This document shows, one piece after another, positions 8,877 to 19,796 of a stretch of DNA of 64,000 nucleotides. Within the stretch, counting starts at the first letter, position 1. The number at the start of each line of letters is the position of its first letter. Source of the DNA: Nitrospira sp. Its GTDB lineage: Bacteria > Nitrospirota > Nitrospiria > Nitrospirales > Nitrospiraceae. The stretch spans positions 124,001-188,000 of the forward strand of contig JACOEL010000003.1 of NCBI GenBank assembly GCA_024998625.1, written 5' to 3'. A program made the translations under genes and the position numbers. Below the pieces are notes generated by a model. The model did no database searches. It was given only the letters and a program-made list of their open reading frames with translations, and was not told where the DNA came from.

Positions 8877-9057
8877 CTAGCCCGGACTATTCATGAATAC
8901 CTGCTCCGTCGTCCGATCCTCTCGCCCGACGGGGCTGTTCTCGTTCGGCCTCCTCGACGGACCGCAAGTACGTCTGCGGCGGCCTTACTGGCGAGAAGCC
9001 CCGGCGGGCTTCGGTCTCAAACGACTCGCGACGGCATTCATGAATAATCCGGGCTAG
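8877..9057. repeat. REP/MITE-like element with 22-bp terminal inverted repeats
   Basis: Two 22-bp ends match in inverted orientation at 21 of 22 positions. They read CTAGCCCGGA, then C or T, then TATTCATGAAT, and enclose about 137 bp. The right end starts at the TAG stop of the upstream kinase gene (9054-9056); the left end abuts the ribosome-binding site of the downstream kinase. A degenerate relative lies at 22737-22863, also ending on a stop codon. It is a non-coding palindromic element, probably of the REP/MITE class mobilised in trans. Confidence 0.75.
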
Positions 9058-12000
9058 CCGTTGGTGCCGGTCGCATTGCCGGCGTTTCCGAGCCAGATCT
9101 CGAGGACCGTTTGAAGATCTTTGGAACGGACCGGTTTGGCGATGTAGTCGTCCATCCCGGCTTCCAGGCAGCGCTCGCGGTCGCCTTGCATGGCGTTGGC
9201 CGTCATAGCGACGATCGGAGTGTGGGCCGACCGGCCTTCCATTTTGCGAATCAGGGCGGTGGCTTCGAACCCGTCTACTTCCGGCATCTGGCAGTCCATA
9301 AAAATCAGCGGATAACGGGAACGCTCATGGGCGGCCACGGCTTCCTGACCGTTTCCCGCGACATCGACCCGGTAGCCGAGTTTCTCCAGCATCTTACAGG
9401 CCACCTTTTGGTTCACGGGATTATCTTCCGCCAGGAGCAGGCGCGGTTTCGGTTCAGCCTGGGATTCGCTCAGGCTGTGTCGCGTGATCAGCGGCGGGGG
9501 GTCGGCGTTCGCCGGTGCTCCGGCTGTGGCCTGGTGGTCCAGTAAGAGGCTCAGGCATTCGAGCAATTGAGATTGTCGAAGCGGCTTGGTGAGATAGGCG
9601 TCGATGCCGAGGGCTTGCGCAGTCTGGCCGTCGCCTCGCCGACCGACCGTGGTGAGGATGACCAGGCGCATGCCGGCTGTTGAGGGGTCTTGCTTGAGCA
9701 ATTGAGCCGTTTCGAAACCGTCCATCTCCGAGAGGTGTAATTCGATGAGAGCCAGGTCGAAGGGTTGCTGTGAGGCGGCAGCCGCATGTGCTATCTCCAC
9801 GGCCTCCGGGCCGGTCCGGGCGACGGCGCAATTCATTCCATGCGACGTGAGGTTCTGGCGCAGAGCCTGCCGGGCGGTGTCGCATTGGTCTACCAGGAGA
9901 ATTCGTCGGTCACGAAGTCGGTTCCAGGAAAGAGGCGATGCGGGAGAAGCCAGTGCCGTCTCTGGAAAGTTCGCCGTGAACCAGAACGTGCTGCCCTGTC
10001 CCGGACAACTCTTGACGCCGATCTGGCCTTGCATTTGAGCGACGAGGCGTTGGCAAATTGCCAGGCCTAGGCCGGTGCCGCCGAAACGGCGGGTAGTTGA
10101 GCTATCGGCCTGCACGAAGGCCTGAAATAATCGAGTTTGTGCTTCTGCATCAATCCCGATGCCGGTATCGGTGATGGTGAACCGCAGGAAGTCCGTTCCG
10201 CCCTGTGTGTCACGCGTCACATGCAGGAACACTTCGCCCACGGACGTGAATTTGATGGCATTGGCGACCAGGTTGACCAGGATTTGCCGGAGTCGGCCCG
10301 GGTCGCCGATGACGCCGGTCGGCACGGTCGCATCAACCAGTCCGATCAACTCCAGGCCTTTGCTTTGCGCCTGTTCCGCGAGGAGGTCCATCGTATCCTC
10401 CACCGTCATCCGGAGGTCGAACGGGAGTTGTTCAAAATGAAGTTTGCCGGCTTCGATTTTCGAGAAATCGAGAATGTCGTTGACAAGCGTCAACAGGGAG
10501 TCGCTGGAACGGCGGACTGTGTCGGCGAACTCATGCTGCTCTGGAGAGAGAGCCGTATCGAGCAGGAGGCCTGTCATGCCGATGATCGCGTTCATCGGGG
10601 TACGAATTTCGTGACTCATCGTGGCGAGGAAGTCGGTTTTGAGTTGAGCCGCACGAAGGGCTTCATCCCGCGCTTGCGCAAGGGCTTGCTCTGTGGCTTT
10701 TCGACTGGTGATATCCTTTCCAATCGCCAAAAATCCGGTCACGGCGTCGTCACTGTCTCGGAGCGCGGTGATGGTCAATAAGACGGTCAGCCGACTGCCG
10801 TCTTTTCGCTGGTAGGTCCATTCCCGTTCGTCGAATCCGCCCTGCCGAACCTGTTCGAAGATGGCCTCGATTCCTTGAATGGAAGGATGGTGCACATCGG
10901 CCAACTCGCTGGCGCGGCGGTCGATTTCTTCCGGTACGTGGAGCGAGGCCAGTGAGTGCTGTCCGATCATCTCAGCGGCCGAATAGCCCAACAGGTCTTC
11001 CGCGCCGGTATTGAATGTCGTGATTATCCCCTCGGTATTGGTGGCGACGATGGACACATTGGTCGCGCTGGCCAGGATGGTTTCCATCTGCCGGTTGGTT
11101 GCGAGCAGGGCCCGTTCCAGGTCTTTGCGAGCCCGGATATCGGTGGCAATGACCTGGATGGCCGGTTGCCCCTCGAACATAATCGGGGCTGCCGCCACTT
11201 CCACATCGATGATCGAGCCGGAGAGACCGACAAACCGCTCCTCGGTGGACGGGACCGGTTGATTCGTGGCGCGTATTTTCGCGATTCGCTGCCGTACCTT
11301 GGGGTGCGATTCGGGATGAATGATCTCAAGGACCGTTTTTCCGAATAACTGCGACGGGGCGATTGCGCCCAATAACTTCGCGCAGGCCTGATTGGTAAAC
11401 ACGATTCTGTCTTCACAATTCACGAAGATGGCGTGGGGCGACAACTCCACGAGCGCGCGATGCCGTAGCTCACTGGCACGGATCTGCGTCTCCATCTGCT
11501 TGGCCGCAGTGATGTCCACGGCGATGCCCGCAATGCGATAGGCCTCCCCCTGGGCGTTCTTGATCGCGAAGCTGCGATCCCGAATCCAACGGACCTGTCC
11601 GCTTGGCGTGACGATCCGATATTCCTCGTCGTAGGGGAGATGGGCCTGACAGGCAGCGGCGGTGGCGACGCGTTTCCGGTCTTCTGGATGGATGTGATCG
11701 AGCCAGAACGTCGGATTCACATAAAGCAGATCTCGGGGGAATTCCCAGATGGTCTCGAAGGCGGGGCTGACATAGAGAAGCTCACTCTTGTCCGGCGAGG
11801 TGAGCCAGAAGACGGCGTCGATATGCTCAGCCAATTGCCGGAAGCGTTCTTCACTCTCCCGGAGGGTCTCTTCCATGCGCTTCCGCTCGGAAATGTCGCA
11901 GAGCATGCCCGTATACTTTTTCTCTGTTCCGATCTGCATCTCGCTGACCGACACATGCACGTCGATCTGAGTCCCGTCTTTGCGCACAGCCTGAAGGTCG

Positions 12001-13883
12001 CGGCCGCTCCCGATGATCACCCGCTTTCCGGTGACCAGATAGTTCGCCAGGTATTCATCGTGGTGTTCTCGATAGGGAGACGGCATGAATATGGAAATGT
12101 TCTGCCCGATCAGTTCGTGCGCCTGGTACCCCAGTAAATTCAACAGAGCGGTGTTGGCGGTTTCGATCCGGCCGCGTTCGTCGATCACCACAATGCCTTC
12201 ACTCGCGCTCTCGAAGATCGAGCGCGTTCTGGTTTCGCTGTCCCGCCAGGCGAATTCGGCGCGTTTGTAGTCGGTGATGTCCAGCACGGTTCCGGCCATA
12301 CTCACCGGTCGTCCGTCGTGATCGCGATGGACGACGCCGCGGCAATTGATGTGCCGGATTTCGCCGTTTGTGCGGAAAATCCGGCAATCGACGTTGTAGG
12401 GCGAATCATATTTCAGCGCGGCATCGACCGCTTGCTTCACGCGCTCGACGTCGTCCTGATGCAGGGCGGCGAGGAACGTCGCATGGGTGGGGAGAATCCG
12501 GTCCGGATCATGGCCGAAGATCCGGCACTGTTCGTCGGACCATCGTGCTTCACCGGTCGCGATAATCCATTCCCAGGAGCCGAGATGAGCCAGCGTCTGG
12601 GCCTCGTCCAGTGCCTGCTGCTTGGCTTGCAGGTCGCGTTGCGAGAGCGCTTGCGCCGCTTCCAGCTCTTTCCGGTCTGAAATGTCGAGATGAATGCCGG
12701 CGGCTCGTAAGGGGGCGCCCTTGGGGTCACGTTCGACCACGCGTCCGCTGTCGAACACCCAACACCAGGAGCCGGATTTGCTCCGCAGGCGATGTTCGCT
12801 GGAATAGCTCGCCGTTTCTCCACGGAGGTGCGCGGAAACTCCAGCCATCACCCGGGCTTGGTCATCGGGGTGCACCAATCGTTCCCAGGTTCGGAGGTGC
12901 GGTTCGATTTCATCGAGACGGTAGCCGAGCATACTGGCCCATCGTTCATTGAAGGTCACTCGCCCTGTCGGGATCTCCCAGTCCCAAGTACCCATTTGCG
13001 AACCTTGCACAATCAAATCCATCCGGTCGGCCTGCTCGTTCACGGTCCGCTCATGCACGGCGAGGAGTCGTTCCAGTTCAGTGATCCGGGACTGCAGATG
13101 AGCGGCCGGGGTGAGAGTCCTGTCGCCATGGCCGTGATCCGGCATACCTGCGGTGGAGGGGCCGGGCGAAGCGATGGTGTCCACGTGGGGGGAAAGGGCA
13201 ATTTGCGCGCATAACGCGAGAGGTTTGAAGAGCTGCGCGGTGCTTTCCGGAATGAAATCCTTACTGAAGAGAATAATGGAAAATAGCTCCCCGTCCGGAA
13301 GCGTCGCCCCGAATCCCAACACCGAGCGGATGCCATACTGATGCACGAATTCTTCTTGATCCGGGACATATGGACTGCCTTGGGCTTGAGGAATGTAGAA
13401 GACATTAAATGACTGTTCCTGGGATTCGAGCAGCAGGCTACGGTCTGTGGCCGTGAGGTGAGGAAGCGAGAGGCCCAACTGACGGAACAGTTGGCTGAAC
13501 ATCGGCAGTCGTTCGATCGCTTCCAACGTGTCGAGCGGGATGACGCGGAAACGGCTCGAAAGCGTCGCGTCATTCCACCCAGGGACCGTTCCTGCGCTGG
13601 CGAGCAGGGTGAGACAGGTCACGGATGCGGAGGGAACTTTCTCTCCCAGGCCGGTGTCGGCCAAGGCTCGAAGGTCCGGGGACAGCCGGCTATAACGTGT
13701 TGTTTTGAAGAGTCGGACCAGGCTGCAGGCCGGTTCGGACTCGTCCATCGTGAAAGAGGTGTAGAGGTGGCGAACAAGACGGTCGGCGACCTGCTCGAGG
13801 CTCGTCGCGTCCGTACCAAGGCGACGCAAGGCCGCGCCGCAGACGGTCATATCTCGAAGTTGGAACGATCGCAGATGGTGCAT
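9054..13883 (-). CDS. Multi-PAS hybrid histidine kinase, two receivers (first one degenerate)
   Basis: A 1609-residue cytoplasmic kinase. An N-terminal GAF-like sensor region (about 1-235) is followed by a coiled coil and six PAS domains, many closed by a D-I-(S/T) strand such as GIHLDISDRK or GMLCDISERK. Next come HisKA (His 1091 in [10 protein letters not shown]), HATPase (DTGIGID, GGTGLGL), receiver 1 and receiver 2 ([11 protein letters not shown]). PAS3 carries the FixL pair: His 608 in EHHDEYL and Arg 628 in GSGRDLQ. Receiver 1 has Glu 1381 (LIELHLSEMDG) where the phosphorylated Asp belongs, and DQ instead of the acidic pair, so it should not be phosphorylated normally. The C-terminal half is clearly paralogous to the next kinase. 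The start has no strong ribosome-binding site; Met 12 is an alternative. Confidence 0.92.
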   Translation of the reverse strand: MHHLRSFQLRDMTVCGAALRRLGTDATSLEQVADRLVRHLYTSFTMDESEPACSLVRLFKTTRYSRLSPDLRALADTGLGEKVPSASVTCLTLLASAGTVPGWNDATLSSRFRVIPLDTLEAIERLPMFSQLFRQLGLSLPHLTATDRSLLLESQEQSFNVFYIPQAQGSPYVPDQEEFVHQYGIRSVLGFGATLPDGELFSIILFSKDFIPESTAQLFKPLALCAQIALSPHVDTIASPGPSTAGMPDHGHGDRTLTPAAHLQSRITELERLLAVHERTVNEQADRMDLIVQGSQMGTWDWEIPTGRVTFNERWASMLGYRLDEIEPHLRTWERLVHPDDQARVMAGVSAHLRGETASYSSEHRLRSKSGSWCWVFDSGRVVERDPKGAPLRAAGIHLDISDRKELEAAQALSQRDLQAKQQALDEAQTLAHLGSWEWIIATGEARWSDEQCRIFGHDPDRILPTHATFLAALHQDDVERVKQAVDAALKYDSPYNVDCRIFRTNGEIRHINCRGVVHRDHDGRPVSMAGTVLDITDYKRAEFAWRDSETRTRSIFESASEGIVVIDERGRIETANTALLNLLGYQAHELIGQNISIFMPSPYREHHDEYLANYLVTGKRVIIGSGRDLQAVRKDGTQIDVHVSVSEMQIGTEKKYTGMLCDISERKRMEETLRESEERFRQLAEHIDAVFWLTSPDKSELLYVSPAFETIWEFPRDLLYVNPTFWLDHIHPEDRKRVATAAACQAHLPYDEEYRIVTPSGQVRWIRDRSFAIKNAQGEAYRIAGIAVDITAAKQMETQIRASELRHRALVELSPHAIFVNCEDRIVFTNQACAKLLGAIAPSQLFGKTVLEIIHPESHPKVRQRIAKIRATNQPVPSTEERFVGLSGSIIDVEVAAAPIMFEGQPAIQVIATDIRARKDLERALLATNRQMETILASATNVSIVATNTEGIITTFNTGAEDLLGYSAAEMIGQHSLASLHVPEEIDRRASELADVHHPSIQGIEAIFEQVRQGGFDEREWTYQRKDGSRLTVLLTITALRDSDDAVTGFLAIGKDITSRKATEQALAQARDEALRAAQLKTDFLATMSHEIRTPMNAIIGMTGLLLDTALSPEQHEFADTVRRSSDSLLTLVNDILDFSKIEAGKLHFEQLPFDLRMTVEDTMDLLAEQAQSKGLELIGLVDATVPTGVIGDPGRLRQILVNLVANAIKFTSVGEVFLHVTRDTQGGTDFLRFTITDTGIGIDAEAQTRLFQAFVQADSSTTRRFGGTGLGLAICQRLVAQMQGQIGVKSCPGQGSTFWFTANFPETALASPASPLSWNRLRDRRILLVDQCDTARQALRQNLTSHGMNCAVARTGPEAVEIAHAAAASQQPFDLALIELHLSEMDGFETAQLLKQDPSTAGMRLVILTTVGRRGDGQTAQALGIDAYLTKPLRQSQLLECLSLLLDHQATAGAPANADPPPLITRHSLSESQAEPKPRLLLAEDNPVNQKVACKMLEKLGYRVDVAGNGQEAVAAHERSRYPLIFMDCQMPEVDGFEATALIRKMEGRSAHTPIVAMTANAMQGDRERCLEAGMDDYIAKPVRSKDLQTVLEIWLGNAGNATGTNG

Positions 13884-13987: not shown

Positions 13988-14644
13988 TCAGGGAATGGTT
14001 TTCAAGTAAAAGGCGGCGGCTTGTGACCTCCTGCTCAGGTGAAGTTTCGAATAGACGTTGGCCAGATAGTTTTTGACGGTTTTATCGCTCAAGCCGAGTT
14101 CGGCGGCGATTTCCTTGTTCGTTTTGCCTTGGGCAATCAGGGGGAGGAGGCGTCGCTCTTGCGGCGACAGCAGGTGACGGCCCCGCTCAGGCTCCCGATC
14201 GGCGACTTTGCGGAGGTAGGCAAACGTGTGACGGGTGACCCCCGGATCCAGGTAGGATTGACCCTTAGTCAGGCTGCGCATGGCGTGCAGGAGGGTATCC
14301 GCTCCGGCCTCCTGGAGCACATACCCGTGGGCGCCTGTTGCGACGGCGGAGAGCAGGGTGGAGTCGTTGAGCGCATCGGCCAGAAAGAGCACACGCGTCT
14401 CCGGAAGATGCGCGAGGATTTCCTTGGCCGTTTCGATACCCGTGCCGTCCTGCACGCGCAGATCGAGCACAACGATGTCGGGTTTGTGGTGGAGCACCAG
14501 GGGGAGCGCCTCCTCCTTCGACGAGGCCTCACCGATCACCATAAAGTCCGGTACGGAATTCAGCAACGTTCGCATGCCGACTCTGACCAATTCCTGAGGA
14601 TTGATGATGAACACGCACACCGGAGTGTTCTGTAATTCGTTCAT
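13988..14644 (-). CDS. LuxR/NarL-type response regulator with degenerate receiver
   Basis: A 218-residue regulator: receiver (about 8-125) and a C-terminal LuxR-type helix-turn-helix (about 150-215; LLPLIAQGKTNKEIAAELGL, DKTVKNYLANVYSKL). The receiver keeps the Asp at the phosphorylation site (Asp 61 in VVLDLRVQDG). It has lost the acidic pair (Asn 15-Pro 16 in FIINPQELV), the switch Thr/Ser (Ala 89) and the catalytic Lys (Gln 111 in GYVLQEAG). By family knowledge such receivers are usually phosphorylation-independent or respond to a ligand. It lies about 100 bp upstream of the 1609-residue kinase on the same strand and may be its output partner, but the receiver chemistry argues against simple phosphorelay control. 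Confidence 0.88.
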   Translation of the reverse strand: MNELQNTPVCVFIINPQELVRVGMRTLLNSVPDFMVIGEASSKEEALPLVLHHKPDIVVLDLRVQDGTGIETAKEILAHLPETRVLFLADALNDSTLLSAVATGAHGYVLQEAGADTLLHAMRSLTKGQSYLDPGVTRHTFAYLRKVADREPERGRHLLSPQERRLLPLIAQGKTNKEIAAELGLSDKTVKNYLANVYSKLHLSRRSQAAAFYLKTIP

Positions 14645-14794
14645 GTTCGACTCTCAACTAGATGTGGATGGATGACTGATGAACTGTTTCTCTGTCTGTG
14701 CCGAGGCGGCGGGTGCCCTTCGACAAGGGCGCCCCGTCGGATGATGATCGGCGTCCATCCTGCTCGAACCGGAGGGAAGCCGCGATCGAACGGC

Positions 14795-14820
14795 CCTGCG
14801 GCGGGCCGGCCTGCCGCAGG
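14795..14820. other. GC-rich hairpin in the gap after the ketoacyl synthase gene
   Basis: CCTGCGGC and GCCGCAGG pair perfectly around a 10-base loop. The hairpin lies about 70 bp past the stop of the synthase gene and about 150 bp before the response regulator start. No T-run follows on the minus strand, so it is not a classic terminator; it could attenuate or stabilise transcripts. The rest of this 245-bp gap shows nothing recognisable. Confidence 0.45.
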
Positions 14821-14889
14821 CCGACCCGCGCGCAGGGCGGCGCATTCGATGCGCGATGTCTTCCGGCTCAGGTTGCTCATGGTGCGGGC

Positions 14890-16215
14890 CTACGAGACTC
14901 CCACCAGATGGGTCATGCTGTAGCCCGGCGACGCAGCCATCGGGCTGGTGGTGGCGATTCCGGCATTCACCCGCGACAGCGCGAGCACGATGTTCTTGCC
15001 GCCGAATCCAAAGCTGTTGATCAAGGCACGATCGAGATGCGCCGCCCGCCCCTGTCCTGAGACATAGTCCAGATCGCAGGTCGGATCCGGCGTCGTCAGG
15101 TTCAGCGTGGGCGGGATGAACTGGTGCTCCATGGCCTTCGCGGTGCCGATGACTTGGAAGGCCCCGCTGGCGGCGAAGGCGTGGCCGAGTGCCGCTTTGA
15201 ACGAACTGACGGGAACCCGATACGCGTGCTCCCCCAGGACCTGTTTGACCGTGTTCGTTTCGAGCGCATCCGACTCCATGGTGCCGAGCCCGCAGGCGTT
15301 CACGTAGTCCACTTCCTCCGGAAACCAATGGGCCGTCGAGAGGGCCAGCCTGGCCGCCCGTTGCTGTTCGTGGCCCGTGTGGTCCGCCTTCACCATGGAA
15401 TGGGCATCACAGGTAAAGCCCCATCCTTCCAGCTCGGCATACATCTTGGCCCCGCGGGCGCGCGCGTGCTCATAGTCTTCCAAGATGAAGCAGCCGGCGC
15501 CTTCGCCTAACACCATGCCGCATCGGGTTTTGTCGAAGGGACGGGGAAGGTTGCGAATGGCCCCGCGTTCGTCCGGCGCCAGCGCGCGCCCGGCGTTCAT
15601 GGCGGCGTAGACGCTTTGGTGGAGCGGCGCTTCGGTTCCGCCGGCCACGACGAGCGACGATTGGCCCGACTTGATCCACTCGTAAGCGCGGCCGATGGCA
15701 TTGGCCGTCGAGGAGCAGCCGATCGAGTATGTCTCGCAGGGGCCGTGCAGCCCGAGCACAATGGCCACTTCCGACGAAATCGCATTCGGGAAGGTCATTC
15801 CCATGGTGAATGGATTCACTCGCTCATAGGCGTTGAGTTTGGCGGCATCGTGGAACTCGAACGCCTCCTTCATGCCGCCGATGGAGGTACCGATGCTGAT
15901 GCCGATGGACCCGCGATCTTCCTGGTCCAGCTCGACGCCGGAATCGCGGGCCGCCATCATGGCGGAGGCAACGGCGAACTGGGTGGCCCGCCCCATGCGC
16001 CGGGCCTGCTTGCGATGCAGGAAATCTTCGGGGTCGAAGTCCCGCACCTCCGCCGCGAGGCAGGCTTGGAACGGTGAGGTATCGAACGAGCTGACCGGTT
16101 TGACGGCGCTCTCACCTTTGCTCAATAGATGCCAGAACAGATCGACGGTACAACCCAACGGGGAAATCACTCCCATTCCGGTAATGACGACTCGACGAGA
16201 GGTCTGTGGTGTCAT
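14890..16215 (-). CDS. Beta-ketoacyl-ACP synthase (FabF-like) with altered catalytic triad
   Basis: A 441-residue protein of the FabF/KAS II fold: N-terminal VVITGMGVISPLG, nucleophile Cys 167 in YSIGCSST, Lys 340 and His 345 in KAALGHAFAASGA, and glycine-rich SFGFGGKN near the end. The first triad His, normally in NAHGTST, is Cys 308 (VNACGLGTMESD), so the Cys-His-His set is Cys-Cys-His. That His helps decarboxylate malonyl-ACP, so a changed reaction such as acyl transfer or priming is possible. The start is fixed by AGGAGG just upstream of the ATG at 16215; a longer open frame upstream is out of family and overlaps the neighbouring gene. Its close partner upstream is the gene at 16257-17528, 41 bp away. 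Confidence 0.88.
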   Translation of the reverse strand: MTPQTSRRVVITGMGVISPLGCTVDLFWHLLSKGESAVKPVSSFDTSPFQACLAAEVRDFDPEDFLHRKQARRMGRATQFAVASAMMAARDSGVELDQEDRGSIGISIGTSIGGMKEAFEFHDAAKLNAYERVNPFTMGMTFPNAISSEVAIVLGLHGPCETYSIGCSSTANAIGRAYEWIKSGQSSLVVAGGTEAPLHQSVYAAMNAGRALAPDERGAIRNLPRPFDKTRCGMVLGEGAGCFILEDYEHARARGAKMYAELEGWGFTCDAHSMVKADHTGHEQQRAARLALSTAHWFPEEVDYVNACGLGTMESDALETNTVKQVLGEHAYRVPVSSFKAALGHAFAASGAFQVIGTAKAMEHQFIPPTLNLTTPDPTCDLDYVSGQGRAAHLDRALINSFGFGGKNIVLALSRVNAGIATTSPMAASPGYSMTHLVGVS

Positions 16216-16256
16216 GGTGCCCTCCTGTGCTCCGGGGAGCGTGAAAATGTGTGTCG

Positions 16257-17528
16257 TCAGTGGCTGTGCCATACATGCATGTGCTCGCGATGCGCGTCCG
16301 GTAACGTGGAATCGGGATAAAACGTCGCATAGAACTCTTCGTCCAGATGATGCGTCTGACAGGCCACGATGGCCTTGCAGGCATCGGCGTGCGCCGGGAA
16401 CCGTCCGTAGGTGCCGAGCACGTAGTCGGCAAACGCGATGGTCGCTTCGATGGCGCGCTCGGAATGCTGCGGCACCTGCTGCGCTGCTTTGGGATTGGTC
16501 CAAGGCTGTTCGCCGGGCTTTCCATAGGTGCCGTTCGGCCCGAACTTGCTGGCGACCAGGCTGGTCACGGCATCCCTCATCGACGGCACGAACGGCGGGG
16601 TGGGGCCCTCCCACACCCGTGGAATACCGACCGGATTGGCGCGCAGGGGCTTGCCCGGCGGGACGACGAAGTGGAATCCGAGGCCGGGGTAGATGTGCGG
16701 CTCCATACCGAGGAGGTGACGGCCGCTCCCCACACTCTGGATGCCGCCGCCCAGTCCCAGGGCCTGCTGCATCAGCGAGAGATGCTCGCAAATGATCCCT
16801 TGCTCTTGAACGGCGGTTTCGCAAATGCCGGCGTCGAGCTCGCGCAGGCTGAACATTTTGCGCGAGGCGAGATTGTCGTGCAGATGCCCGCCCGCGCTCT
16901 TACGGAAAGCATCGAGGCCGCAGGCGGCGTTGCCGTTGTCCGTATCGACGATGAAGTATCCCGTCTCTTCGCTGAACATCGTCAGCAGGAGATTCAGATA
17001 CAGGAGCGCGATATTGGTGACGGGCATGAATAGTGTGGTGCCGGGGCGGTTCGTATACCACTGATTGAACGGCAGCATGAACGGGGCTTCGCGTGGGATC
17101 TCCAGTCGGGTCGATTGGAGTTGCACAACCTCCAGATCCCAGGGATGGTCGGGGCCGGCCGCGTCAGCGACAAAAAACACCCCATCATCGTTGGTATAAA
17201 AGAGTTGCGTGCTCTGCGCGGAGCAGGGGCTGGGAACCATGCGGCTCTTGAAGTTCATCAGGGCGTGGCCCTGGCCGGCATTCGTGCCCGGTCGTCCGAC
17301 AAACTGCATGTCGCCCAGGTTACGCCCGGATCGGCCGATGGCCGCATAGATCAGATATCGTTCTTCTTCCCGGCTCAGCGGGAGGGGGTCATGTTGACTT
17401 GTGAATTGCAGCGGGCCGCCGGGCAGGGTCATGCCGCGGCCGAAGCGGCGCGTCTTGCGTTGTTGCAGGAGGTCGAGCAGAGTACATGTGGCGTCCATTG
17501 CTGCAGGTTGTGCGGCAAGCTGCTTCAT
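16257..17528 (-). CDS. Protein of unknown function, nitroreductase-like N-terminus
   Basis: 423 residues, start chosen at the ATG preceded by AAGGAG. The N-terminus LLDLLQQRKTRRFGRGM, followed by PLPLSREEERYLIYAA and GRNLGD, resembles the R-x-S/T-x-R FMN-binding start of nitroreductase-fold proteins. The middle has alternating strands and helices, with QALGLGGGIQSVGSG in a place where nitroreductases carry a glycine-rich segment. The C-terminus is distinctive: ADYVLGTYGRFPAH, ACQTHHLDEEFY and a final HMHVWHSH, with many His. No signal peptide or membrane helix. I do not recognise a characterised member. The gene is the first of a two-gene unit with the ketoacyl synthase, suggesting they act on the same acyl substrate. 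Confidence 0.7.
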   Translation of the reverse strand: MKQLAAQPAAMDATCTLLDLLQQRKTRRFGRGMTLPGGPLQFTSQHDPLPLSREEERYLIYAAIGRSGRNLGDMQFVGRPGTNAGQGHALMNFKSRMVPSPCSAQSTQLFYTNDDGVFFVADAAGPDHPWDLEVVQLQSTRLEIPREAPFMLPFNQWYTNRPGTTLFMPVTNIALLYLNLLLTMFSEETGYFIVDTDNGNAACGLDAFRKSAGGHLHDNLASRKMFSLRELDAGICETAVQEQGIICEHLSLMQQALGLGGGIQSVGSGRHLLGMEPHIYPGLGFHFVVPPGKPLRANPVGIPRVWEGPTPPFVPSMRDAVTSLVASKFGPNGTYGKPGEQPWTNPKAAQQVPQHSERAIEATIAFADYVLGTYGRFPAHADACKAIVACQTHHLDEEFYATFYPDSTLPDAHREHMHVWHSH

Positions 17529-17659
17529 AGGGCCTCTCCTTCCCGGCATCCTAGGGCGGGATGGCCCTGGCCGGTTGTGTGAATAGTGGTGATGCCGGTG
17601 CGTCACGCGCGGCATAACGTTGTGTGGGGCGAATGTACGAGAGGCGAGGTCTGGCGTCA

Positions 17660-17677
17660 CCTACCCATCGGGGTAGG
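17660..17677. promoter_or_regulatory. Candidate operator: CCTACCC-N4-GGGTAGG
   Basis: A perfect 7-bp dyad with a 4-bp spacer lies 132 bp upstream of the unknown-function/ketoacyl-synthase unit and between it and the LuxR gene. An extra CCTACCC half-site follows at 17685-17691. Size and symmetry suit a dimeric helix-turn-helix regulator; the adjacent LuxR protein is the obvious candidate. The assignment is inference. Confidence 0.4.
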
Positions 17678-17749
17678 CGGGCGCCCTACCCGGCGTCGGT
17701 CAACTGATGACGGACGAGGCGGAGCGCGAGTCGGCATGCATCGAGCGAT

Positions 17750-18547
17750 TTAGTCGGATGTCTTGGCCACGGAGTGTGGACAGTCGTCACTGGGCGGTGC
17801 GGATGGCACGATGCGATGTTGTTCGCCGGTCTGCCAATAGGCAATGGCGCTCCATCGATTTTCGACCCCGATTTTCTGAAAGACGTTCTTGAGATGAAAC
17901 TTGATGGTGTTCAAACTGACTTTCAGAATGACGGAGATTTCCCAATTGGTCTTGCCTGCCGCAACCCATCGGAGAATTTCTTCTTCCCGTTTGCTCAGTA
18001 CGGTTGGCGGCGGGGCAGGTCGTTCCGGATTCCATGCGGAGTGGCATCGCATGTAACTCAGATGAAAATGCGGGGTCAGAATATCGAGCAGGAGCCGGAG
18101 TTTGTCGGTCTGTTTCGCATCGAAATTACTGAAGGCGAAGTACGAACAGGCCCCATTCGCTCCGCGCACTCCAGCCGAGAGGCAGGTCTTGATGCCGAAG
18201 TCGAGCTTGAGCGAGGTAATGCCCTTGGGCTCGTTGGCGGTCGGTTCATCGGCGCTGGAGGTCACGGTCTGACCAGAGGTGATGAGGCGGTTGACGGCCG
18301 GATCGACCACCAATCCTTGGCCCATATACAGTTGGCAGAATTCCCGCGGGTAGGTGGAATGCCCCAGTAAAGGATCGATCCCGTGCAGGAGATCGACGGC
18401 GCCGCATCCGGAGAATTCGTAAGGAACCACTTTCTGCACGGCCGAGACGAGTTGCCACACCCTGTCGCTGCGATCGACGGAGCGTGCATCATGCATGATT
18501 TCGCCGAGCCGTTGAAATTCCCTGGCGGAAAATGCTGGCTGACTCAT
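17750..18547 (-). CDS. LuxR-family regulator with autoinducer-domain-like N-terminus
   Basis: 265 residues. The N-terminal part (about 1-170) resembles an autoinducer-binding domain: YPREFCQLYMGQGLVVDPAV aligns with the usual Y-P-x-x-W-x-x-x-Y...D-P pattern, but Phe replaces the first ligand-contacting Trp and the second is absent. The C-terminal LuxR HTH is clear (LSKREEEILRWVAAGKTNWE, then SLNTIKFHLKNVFQKIGVENR). No luxI-type synthase gene is in the window, so it would be a LuxR solo, possibly binding something other than an acyl-homoserine lactone. It is oriented with the two metabolic genes, 221 bp upstream of them, and is their likely regulator. Confidence 0.85.
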   Translation of the reverse strand: MSQPAFSAREFQRLGEIMHDARSVDRSDRVWQLVSAVQKVVPYEFSGCGAVDLLHGIDPLLGHSTYPREFCQLYMGQGLVVDPAVNRLITSGQTVTSSADEPTANEPKGITSLKLDFGIKTCLSAGVRGANGACSYFAFSNFDAKQTDKLRLLLDILTPHFHLSYMRCHSAWNPERPAPPPTVLSKREEEILRWVAAGKTNWEISVILKVSLNTIKFHLKNVFQKIGVENRWSAIAYWQTGEQHRIVPSAPPSDDCPHSVAKTSD

Positions 18548-18800: not shown

Positions 18801-19796
18801 CTAGCGGTGAATCTTCAGGGTCGGCCCGAGCGTCAGCCACTTCGTGGGGCCGAGGGCGGCCATATGCGGTAGGTGGGCCACATACCAGAACACCACATCC
18901 TGTTCTTGGACGCCCTGGTTGTCCTCGTCATAACCGAGCTGGCCCCGGGCTCCGAAGACCCAGGGGAGGTCTTCGTCCGGATTGGCCCGACGAATGGCCA
19001 CGTCGAGGTCGGCGAACGAATCGCGTTCGCCGTCGTCTTGCAGGGGCGCGTAGCCGTCTCCGGGAAGCACCCAGACCCCATGTCCTGTGAGTTGGTCGCG
19101 AATAAACCAGGACCGGTGAGTGGCCGTATTCTTCACGTCATTGCGTTCATTGGCATATTTTTTCCATCCCGGCCCCCAACCGCTGTCCGGGCCCCCGTCG
19201 TCGCGCACAAAGACCTGATCCATTCCGTTGCCGTTGATGTCGAAATCGAAGCGCCAATAGGGATGGTGGACGTGATCGGTATTGCAGGACAACCCCCGGC
19301 TCTGGACGACCGGCCGTAATTCACCGTCTTCGGACAGATGCCAGGATTGGTAAATGTGATACTCCCCGATTCGCGCATAGATGCCCAGTTCCAGCCATTT
19401 CATGCCGTTCACCGTCGAGCTTTCGACGCAGACCTTCCGGTCGCCGCAGTTCACGATCGGGACCAGATCCTGCCAGCGCAGTCGGTCTTGAAAGGGGCCG
19501 CAGCGTCCGCTGTCGGCGCGGGAGCCGAACCAGGTAAAGGGGTTCCACCAGATGCGTTCCTTCACGTATTTCACGCGCAGGACCGGCATGCTGGCTTTGG
19601 CCAGCACCTGTTCACCTCCGTAAGTGACGTTGCGAAGGGCCAGGGCGGTGTTGTCCCGGACTTCGTAATCGAAACTCCAGGCTCCCCACTCGACATGCTC
19701 CGATGCGGTGTCGGCTGAGCCGGGTAGCGGCAGCCCGAGGGTGCAGAGCAGTAACACAGCACTCACCGCGAGGCGTCTCATTCCGTATCCTTTCAC
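18801..19796 (-). CDS. Secreted copper-amine-oxidase-like protein (catalytic domain only)
   Basis: 331 residues with a signal peptide (about 1-28, ending GSA-D). The body resembles the C-terminal catalytic domain of copper amine oxidases. WGAWSFDYEVRDNTALALRNV and VLAKASMPVLRVKYV match the first strands. IGEYHIYQSWHLSEDGEL corresponds to the T-x-x-N-Y-D-Y-x-W cofactor region, with Tyr 146 in the TPQ-precursor position. DHVHHPYWRFDFDINGNG corresponds to the copper-binding HxH plus R-x-D-x-D strand. The Asn and second Tyr of NYDY are missing and the domain is about half normal length, so oxidase activity is doubtful. It is the last gene of a five-gene unit, 4 bp after a lipoprotein gene. Confidence 0.6.
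   Translation of the reverse strand: MKGYGMRRLAVSAVLLLCTLGLPLPGSADTASEHVEWGAWSFDYEVRDNTALALRNVTYGGEQVLAKASMPVLRVKYVKERIWWNPFTWFGSRADSGRCGPFQDRLRWQDLVPIVNCGDRKVCVESSTVNGMKWLELGIYARIGEYHIYQSWHLSEDGELRPVVQSRGLSCNTDHVHHPYWRFDFDINGNGMDQVFVRDDGGPDSGWGPGWKKYANERNDVKNTATHRSWFIRDQLTGHGVWVLPGDGYAPLQDDGERDSFADLDVAIRRANPDEDLPWVFGARGQLGYDEDNQGVQEQDVVFWYVAHLPHMAALGPTKWLTLGPTLKIHR

Follow-up and report, generated by a model that had tools for sequence, protein, structure and literature searches.

The window analysed here is a 64,000-nucleotide stretch of a Nitrospira sp. genome (GenBank assembly GCA_024998625.1, contig JACOEL010000003.1, positions 124,001 to 188,000), and its source genome is close to Candidatus N. 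defluvii (enzyme orthologs 95-97% identical). On the minus strand lie, in order of transcription, a LuxR-type regulator gene, here called luxR1 (18547-17750), a 221-bp gap with an inverted repeat (dyad), the gene of a 423-amino-acid (aa) enzyme (17528-16257), a 41-bp gap and the gene of a 441-aa ketosynthase (16215-14890). This triad of a luxR, a nitroreductase-fold enzyme and a FabF-like ketosynthase is a conserved unit of the Nitrospiraceae, and no description of the gene set was found in the open-access texts that were searched. The mechanical list of open reading frames (ORFs) gave longer ORFs with TTG and GTG starts, and the conserved starts were used instead; the enzyme, contained in a long ORF of 16257-17660, was taken from ATG 17528, and a TTG start of the ketosynthase at 16824 was set aside. 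The features of the triad are as follows.

17750..18547, minus strand: luxR1, 265-aa LuxR-type regulator with autoinducer-binding and GerE domains; hexad FYDP(T/S)C as against WYDPWG of N-acyl homoserine lactone (AHL) receptors
17660..17677, minus strand: predicted lux-box-like operator, CCTACCC-CGAT-GGGTAGG on the gene strand, 132 bp upstream of the enzyme ATG
17632..17637, minus strand: -10-like hexamer TACATT, bases 23-28 downstream of the dyad; predicted transcription start near 17625, dyad centre near -43
16257..17528, minus strand: 423-aa enzyme with a predicted flavin mononucleotide (FMN) nitroreductase-superfamily fold; true start at ATG 17528
14890..16215, minus strand: 441-aa FabF-like ketosynthase with Cys-Cys-His instead of Cys-His-His
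15715..15717, minus strand: codon of ketosynthase Cys167, the nucleophile, equivalent to FabF Cys163
15292..15294, minus strand: codon of ketosynthase Cys308, in place of FabF His303
15181..15183, minus strand: codon of ketosynthase His345, equivalent to FabF His340 and kept

The enzyme gene was found in 27 of the 29 genomes of the window's genus (in G010 as a fragment only, at a contig end), and each of the loci fetched from this genus had luxR1, enzyme and ketosynthase side by side, the luxR1 of L036 being cut by a contig end. A further 18 triad loci came from other genera, mostly with different flanking genes. In 17 of these, the family search gave identities of 53-59% for the enzyme, 65-68% for the ketosynthase and 48-54% for luxR1; the corresponding values for the triad of the sister genus were 81, 86 and 77%. 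Outside the window's genus, the enzyme stop overlaps the ketosynthase start in most triad loci, so the two genes are probably translationally coupled there. An initial annotation of this DNA had described a LuxR-controlled two-gene cluster. The neighbourhood comparison upheld the pair, which stayed together throughout these loci; the two-gene extent is right for the lineage-I form, to which the window belongs, and elsewhere the cassette is larger and includes a cytochrome P450. Judged by this comparison, the gene set, the operator described below and their long co-inheritance are solid within the Nitrospirota, beyond which the spread is poorly sampled, as the one genome-contig scan returned close relatives only.

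The dyad in the 221-bp gap reads CCTACCC-ATCG-GGGTAGG on the plus strand (17660-17677). It is perfect, as the initial annotation had stated, and is the sole such site in the window even when two mismatches are allowed. The chance of a 7-bp dyad within a single gap of this length is about 0.16 and such a repeat is not rare by chance, yet conservation across the triad genomes shows this one to be real. The perfect form CCTACCC-N4-GGGTAGG was present in 43 of 44 triad genomes as against 0 of 31 genomes from the family or phylum that lack the triad, many of which carry luxI (Fisher p = 3e-20 without correction for phylogeny). A genome that has the site has it only once, G194 excepted, where a second copy of the enzyme gene brings the sites to two. 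In every lineage-I locus the dyad lies upstream of the enzyme gene. Of 20 more divergent loci, 19 also have it; there the spacer varies and the arms are often lengthened to ACCTACCC-N4-GGGTAGGT.

A TAnnnT motif starts at base 23 from the dyad (a distance of 22 bp) in 38 of 39 distinct promoters and is off by one base in the remaining one; at any other offset it was seen in fewer than 15% of the 39. The lux box of a class-II LuxR promoter occupies about this position, near -43, overlapping the -35 region. With this TAnnnT spacing the predicted transcription start falls about 43 bp after the dyad centre, and the dyad is accordingly predicted to be a lux-box-type class-II activator site. At eight loci with a divergent P450 gene, the dyad lies between the P450 and enzyme genes, and a TAnnnT at base 23 was present on the opposite side too (8/8, versus 3/31 of the other loci), so the dyad is very probably a two-way LuxR1 operator. 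The proposed control by LuxR was thus strengthened, since both the distribution of the dyad and the fixed -10 spacing are those of a LuxR-type operator, and we infer that LuxR1 binds it. A role of the dyad as a terminator was set aside in view of the absence of a T-run after it and the fixed -10 spacing. A wider LuxR1 regulon acting through the same dyad was also considered and found unsupported, with one perfect site per genome (two in G194). The second, partial enzyme-gene copy of G194, on contig C53 (2554-3152 and 4-186), has its own perfect dyad, and a luxI fragment lies at the end of that contig.

LuxR1 matched the Pfam families Autoind_bind (1.6e-8, 34.6 bits) and GerE (1.7e-20, 72.8 bits), both past the cut-off. 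LuxI was absent from all 29 genomes of the genus, while 91 of 172 sampled genomes of the family, used as a positive control, contained it. LuxR1 is therefore a LuxR solo in the window's genus, with the autoinducer-like domain that had been ascribed to it at the outset. From the AHL-receptor hexad WYDPWG it retains only Y, D and P, with both Trp and the Gly gone, and essentially all of 42 sequences follow the pattern F/L/H/M-Y-D-P-S/T-C (mostly xYDPSC); its ligand is likely to be other than an AHL. The hexad of an N. defluvii LuxR solo, D8PAV3, was aligned as F-Y-D-P-gap-C in a survey of 2015 (PMC4338825), and this protein, whose hexad agrees with that of the window's LuxR1, is almost certainly its ortholog.

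The ketosynthase has both the N and C domains (PF00109, PF02801). Among the KAS I/II and polyketide synthase (PKS)-type matches its best model was FabF, and it did not come out as PpyS- or DarB-type. It scored 433.2 bits with the fabF equivalog TIGR03150, under the cut-off of 493.75, and passed the broader subfamily model NF005589. When the protein was aligned to solved FabF structures, the nucleophilic Cys167, the Lys, the second His (His345) and the GFGG gate were found to be kept, and the first catalytic His was found to be Cys308, in the motif NACGLGT; the altered ketoacyl synthase of the initial annotation was confirmed at this residue. The Cys/Cys/His set, instead of the Cys-His-His triad of FabF, is invariant in 43 of 43 triad ketosynthases, and the genome's own FabF-like L102 reads NAHGTST. 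Of 395 genomes of the phylum, 31 contain the codon pattern of NACGLGT, each of them once and always in the triad ketosynthase. In FabF, His303 and His340 hold the substrate carbonyl (PMC7138838), and loss of the His of HGTGT is a hallmark of the non-elongating KS0 domains (PMC4661987). Because its first His is always Cys, the ketosynthase is predicted to load and transfer acyl groups without normal elongation.

The 423-aa enzyme had no Pfam or NCBIfam match of its own, not even to the nitroreductase family PF00881, which 18 of 39 relatives match weakly (best 3.5e-4); phmmer and profile searches of the PDB with it gave no significant match either. A structure model built from 39 diverse sequences reached a predicted local distance difference test score (pLDDT) of 81.8, and an earlier model from 16 sequences (pLDDT 41.5) was discarded. 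The predicted structure matched FMN nitroreductases, 8cqs with Z 15.3 and a root-mean-square deviation of 2.3 Å over 167 residues, with similar values for 3hoi and 3hj9; it also matched the azoline oxidases BmdC, ThcOx and McbC, the closest solved folds lying at Z 11-15. By its modelled fold the enzyme is a member of the FMN nitroreductase superfamily, a match that does not specify the reaction. It does not fall in a defined unrelated family, which the initial annotation had named as an outcome that would tell against its proposal. The likeness to nitroreductases noted there is real, but it is not confined to the start of the protein, as the fold extends through it; the distinct His-rich C-terminus did not hold up, HREHMHVWHSH being merely a short and poorly conserved tail. 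Azoline oxidation was considered as the reaction. Homology searches found no substrate-making partner for it, that is, no non-ribosomal peptide synthetase (NRPS) gene and no partner gene for a ribosomally synthesised and post-translationally modified peptide (RiPP) in the cassette, although not every flanking gene was classified.

Relatives of the enzyme were also found outside the triad. A paralog, 35-38% identical and without a ketosynthase, is present in L037, L038, L039, L040 and L093; from translations read by eye, it stands near cupin and sigma-factor-like genes in L037 and beside a molybdopterin oxidoreductase-like gene in L038. More distant relatives (27-34%) are plasmid-borne, in Rhizobium, Phyllobacterium, Rhodobacter, Nonomuraea and Haladaptatus; two have a haem peroxidase as neighbour. 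Next to these relatives no ketosynthase is annotated where genes are annotated (the Nonomuraea stretch is unannotated). In L098 (1795-8311, a Rhizobium phaseoli plasmid) and L100 the relative lies downstream of an animal-type haem peroxidase, accompanied in L098 by a cytochrome c gene; the pair could possibly belong to an oxidised-lipid pathway.

In relatives, the same role in the cassette is filled by one or other of two P450s. Type a, of 545 aa and divergent, was found in eight loci; type b, of about 420 aa, lies downstream of the ketosynthase and was found in nine. The two are unrelated and never occur in one locus, and the lineage-I form has neither. In sequence, the bacterial P450s nearest to type b include enzymes that tailor macrolides and polyketides, and type a has moderate similarity to a broad range only. 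The LuxR1 tree sorts by P450 type, but the ketosynthase tree does not, and within one genus, the ketosynthases of loci that differ in P450 type share up to 98-100% identity across most of the protein. In that genus the average identity of the LuxR1 ligand domain was 57% between P450 types versus 76% within them, and that of the flavin enzyme about 65% versus about 86%; the LuxR1 DNA-binding domain varied less (71% versus 79%). As judged from these identities, the receptor and the flavin enzyme change in concert with the P450 type, around a ketosynthase that stays nearly identical, as is to be expected if the receptor must match the tailored product. In the window's own genus, L035 and L036 carry the divergent form of the cassette, with a P450, and the genes on either side are the same; the flanks are about 62-81% identical and the cassette 48-65%, as if it had been exchanged in place.

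An AHL module accompanies the cassette in several relatives. G414, G419, G140 and G355 have a luxI gene and a canonical luxR gene, here luxR2, within the locus or next to it. The order luxR2-luxI-histidine kinase directly follows the ketosynthase in L115, from the sister genus, and in L121, from a genome less closely related, and in L082 and L086 it is placed upstream of luxR1. Unlike LuxR1, the LuxR2 beside the cassette retains the full WYDPWG. The luxI box, ACCTGGCG-N4-CGCCAGGT in L115 and L082 with a one-base variant in L121, is distinct from the LuxR1 dyad. It matches almost letter for letter the NspR1 box of Nitrospira, ACCTGGCGGTTCCGCCAGGT, which was established by reporter assay and electrophoretic mobility shift assay (PMC8553950). 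In L079-L081 and L083, luxI is lost and luxR2 is reduced to its C-terminal part, and the NspR1-type box is still there (L079 8461-8478, L080 3487-3504, L081 11356-11373, L083 11343-11360); we read these boxes beside truncated luxR2 genes as a fossil that an AHL module has left behind. At the junction that follows the ketosynthase, luxI and luxR2 are both missing from the lineage-I loci. Because two distant relatives share the same arrangement, it is likelier that the module was lost in lineage I than that it was gained independently elsewhere, and the triad outlives the module, since loci without luxI retain it. The statement of the initial annotation that this is not a LuxI system is accordingly correct for the window's lineage only; there are relatives in which luxI and a canonical luxR2, served by a lux box of their own, lie in or beside the locus. 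The junction and its neighbour in the window are:

14645..14889, no strand: ketosynthase/response-regulator junction; site of luxR2-luxI-histidine kinase in the sister genus (L115), none in the window's lineage
13988..14644, minus strand: NarL-type response regulator, a syntenic neighbour outside the conserved cassette

Directly after the NarL-type regulator comes a 1609-aa multi-PAS hybrid histidine kinase (9054-13883), both genes being syntenic genus-wide. On the other side, a small protein with a partial match to a copper amine oxidase domain (18801-19796) is the syntenic upstream neighbour across the genus.

A minimal pathway to an acyl-derived signal or metabolite, as first suggested for this locus, is still the best reading. 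We give about an even chance to a self-contained cassette of regulator and enzymes that makes, and probably senses, a non-AHL acyl-derived metabolite. In such a cassette, by analogy with the LuxR family, LuxR1 would bind a non-AHL ligand, dimerise, bind CCTACCC-N4-GGGTAGG and recruit RNA polymerase to the genes of the flavin enzyme and the ketosynthase. The ketosynthase would load an acyl chain from acyl-ACP (acyl carrier protein) onto Cys167 and, with normal decarboxylative elongation precluded by the missing first His, would pass the acyl group to an acceptor or condense it in an unusual way. Next, the nitroreductase-fold enzyme would use its flavin to oxidise or reduce the intermediate, and the product would be tailored in relatives by one of the two unrelated P450s. 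If the product were the ligand of LuxR1, a positive-feedback loop would be closed; this is the least certain step, and that the two are the same is our best guess, at about even odds, on the analogy with PluR and PauR of Photorhabdus and on the cassette switching. The fuller proposal is tentative: a new non-AHL signalling system of nitrite-oxidizing and related Nitrospira, in which a disabled FabF-like ketosynthase and a large nitroreductase-fold enzyme might make an acyl-derived signal, a cognate LuxR might read it through its own lux box, and interchangeable receptor/tailoring cassettes might act as signal dialects. Several observations weigh against these proposals. No ACP, thioesterase or exporter gene is present in the cassette, and the triad genome G207 (L088) has no recognisable dyad; the co-variation may rest on very few recombination events and could be increased by the linkage of luxR1 and the enzyme gene; and luxI in or beside the locus of several relatives leaves room for an AHL link.

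Such a link would make LuxR1 an AHL receptor with a degenerate pocket and the cassette an output of AHL quorum sensing, with the luxI-less lineage I hearing the AHLs of other cells. The luxI and canonical luxR genes of G414, G419, G140 and G355 and the retained Y, D and P of the hexad would fit this, and a 2025 survey of Nitrospirales, in which many lineage-I genomes had LuxR homologs without LuxI, left it unclear whether they respond to the AHLs of other organisms (PMC12342949). But both Trp and the Gly are lost in essentially all 42 LuxR1 sequences while the adjacent LuxR2 has all six residues, the boxes differ between the genes of the two receptors, and the cassette remains where luxI is gone, both at the loci that keep a truncated luxR2 and the relic of an NspR1-type box and in the entire genus of the window; we consider the AHL-linked explanation unlikely. 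Equally doubtful in our view is that LuxR1 senses an unrelated metabolite or needs no ligand, and that the enzymes remodel a cellular lipid or cofactor with no signal involved. The lack of an exporter or signal-release gene would agree with this, as would the distant flavin-enzyme relatives beside haem peroxidase in rhizobia, a setting of oxidative metabolism; on the other side, P450 type, flavin enzyme and LuxR1 ligand domain change jointly, and swapping of tailoring enzymes is typical of specialised metabolism.

That the locus is an ordinary fatty-acid gene duplicate beside an unrelated regulator, with a dyad due to chance or to a terminator, is highly improbable. The ketosynthase is clearly a relative of FabF, and a 7-bp dyad in a single intergenic gap is nothing unusual, but the comparative data already contradict this explanation: dyad and triad co-occur exclusively, the -10 spacing is fixed, the His-to-Cys change is invariant, the enzyme is conserved at 53-59% identity with changed flanks, and no T-run follows the dyad. 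As to the question left by the 2025 survey, whether lineage-I LuxR homologs without LuxI respond to the AHLs of other organisms, such a LuxR is now tied to its own enzymes, operator and predicted transcription start, so that the question can be tested directly in E. coli. As nitrite oxidizers, Nitrospira play a key part in wastewater treatment and in natural habitats, and they are difficult to manipulate; a signal acting on them would thus be of interest for practice and for ecology. The swap of the catalytic His for Cys, seen in all genomes examined, also makes the free-standing ketosynthase a curiosity for enzymologists.

Among known systems, BmdC, ThcOx and McbC oxidise azolines; the 423-aa enzyme is only 9-16% identical to these and to small nitroreductases, and differs from them in its long insertions and in that the homology searches found no NRPS or RiPP partner in the cassette. 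In Photorhabdus, PluR/PpyS (photopyrones) and PauR/DarABC (dialkylresorcinols) resemble the cassette in that a LuxR solo is tied to, or lies beside, a ketosynthase pathway. The AHL hexad is altered in both cases, to TYDQCS in PluR and TYDQYI in PauR, whose ligands are photopyrones and dialkylresorcinols (PMC4414361), and to xYDPSC in the cassette, which differs in its FabF-type Cys-Cys-His ketosynthase, its nitroreductase-fold enzyme (with a P450 in relatives) and its phylum. KS0 domains, whose expected role is to pass acyl chains on without elongating them (PMC4661987, PMC7619045), have likewise lost the active-site His of HGTGT and kept the acyl-accepting Cys, but they reside within modular PKSs, whereas the cassette ketosynthase is free-standing and FabF-like, with Cys replacing His. 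NspI/NspR1 of Nitrospira (PMC8553950) come from the same bacterial group and share the 20-bp lux-box frame (ACCT...AGGT) of the cassette, from which LuxR1 departs by another box core (ACCTACCC-N4-GGGTAGGT), by the absence of the AHL hexad and by the absence of luxI from the genus. The survey that lists D8PAV3 (PMC4338825) has no mention of ketoacyl, nitroreductase or P450 in its text, so the neighbours, operator and enzymes are undescribed there. A LuxR solo with a ketosynthase pathway is thus of a known kind, and it is the enzymes, the phylum and the switching P450s that are new.

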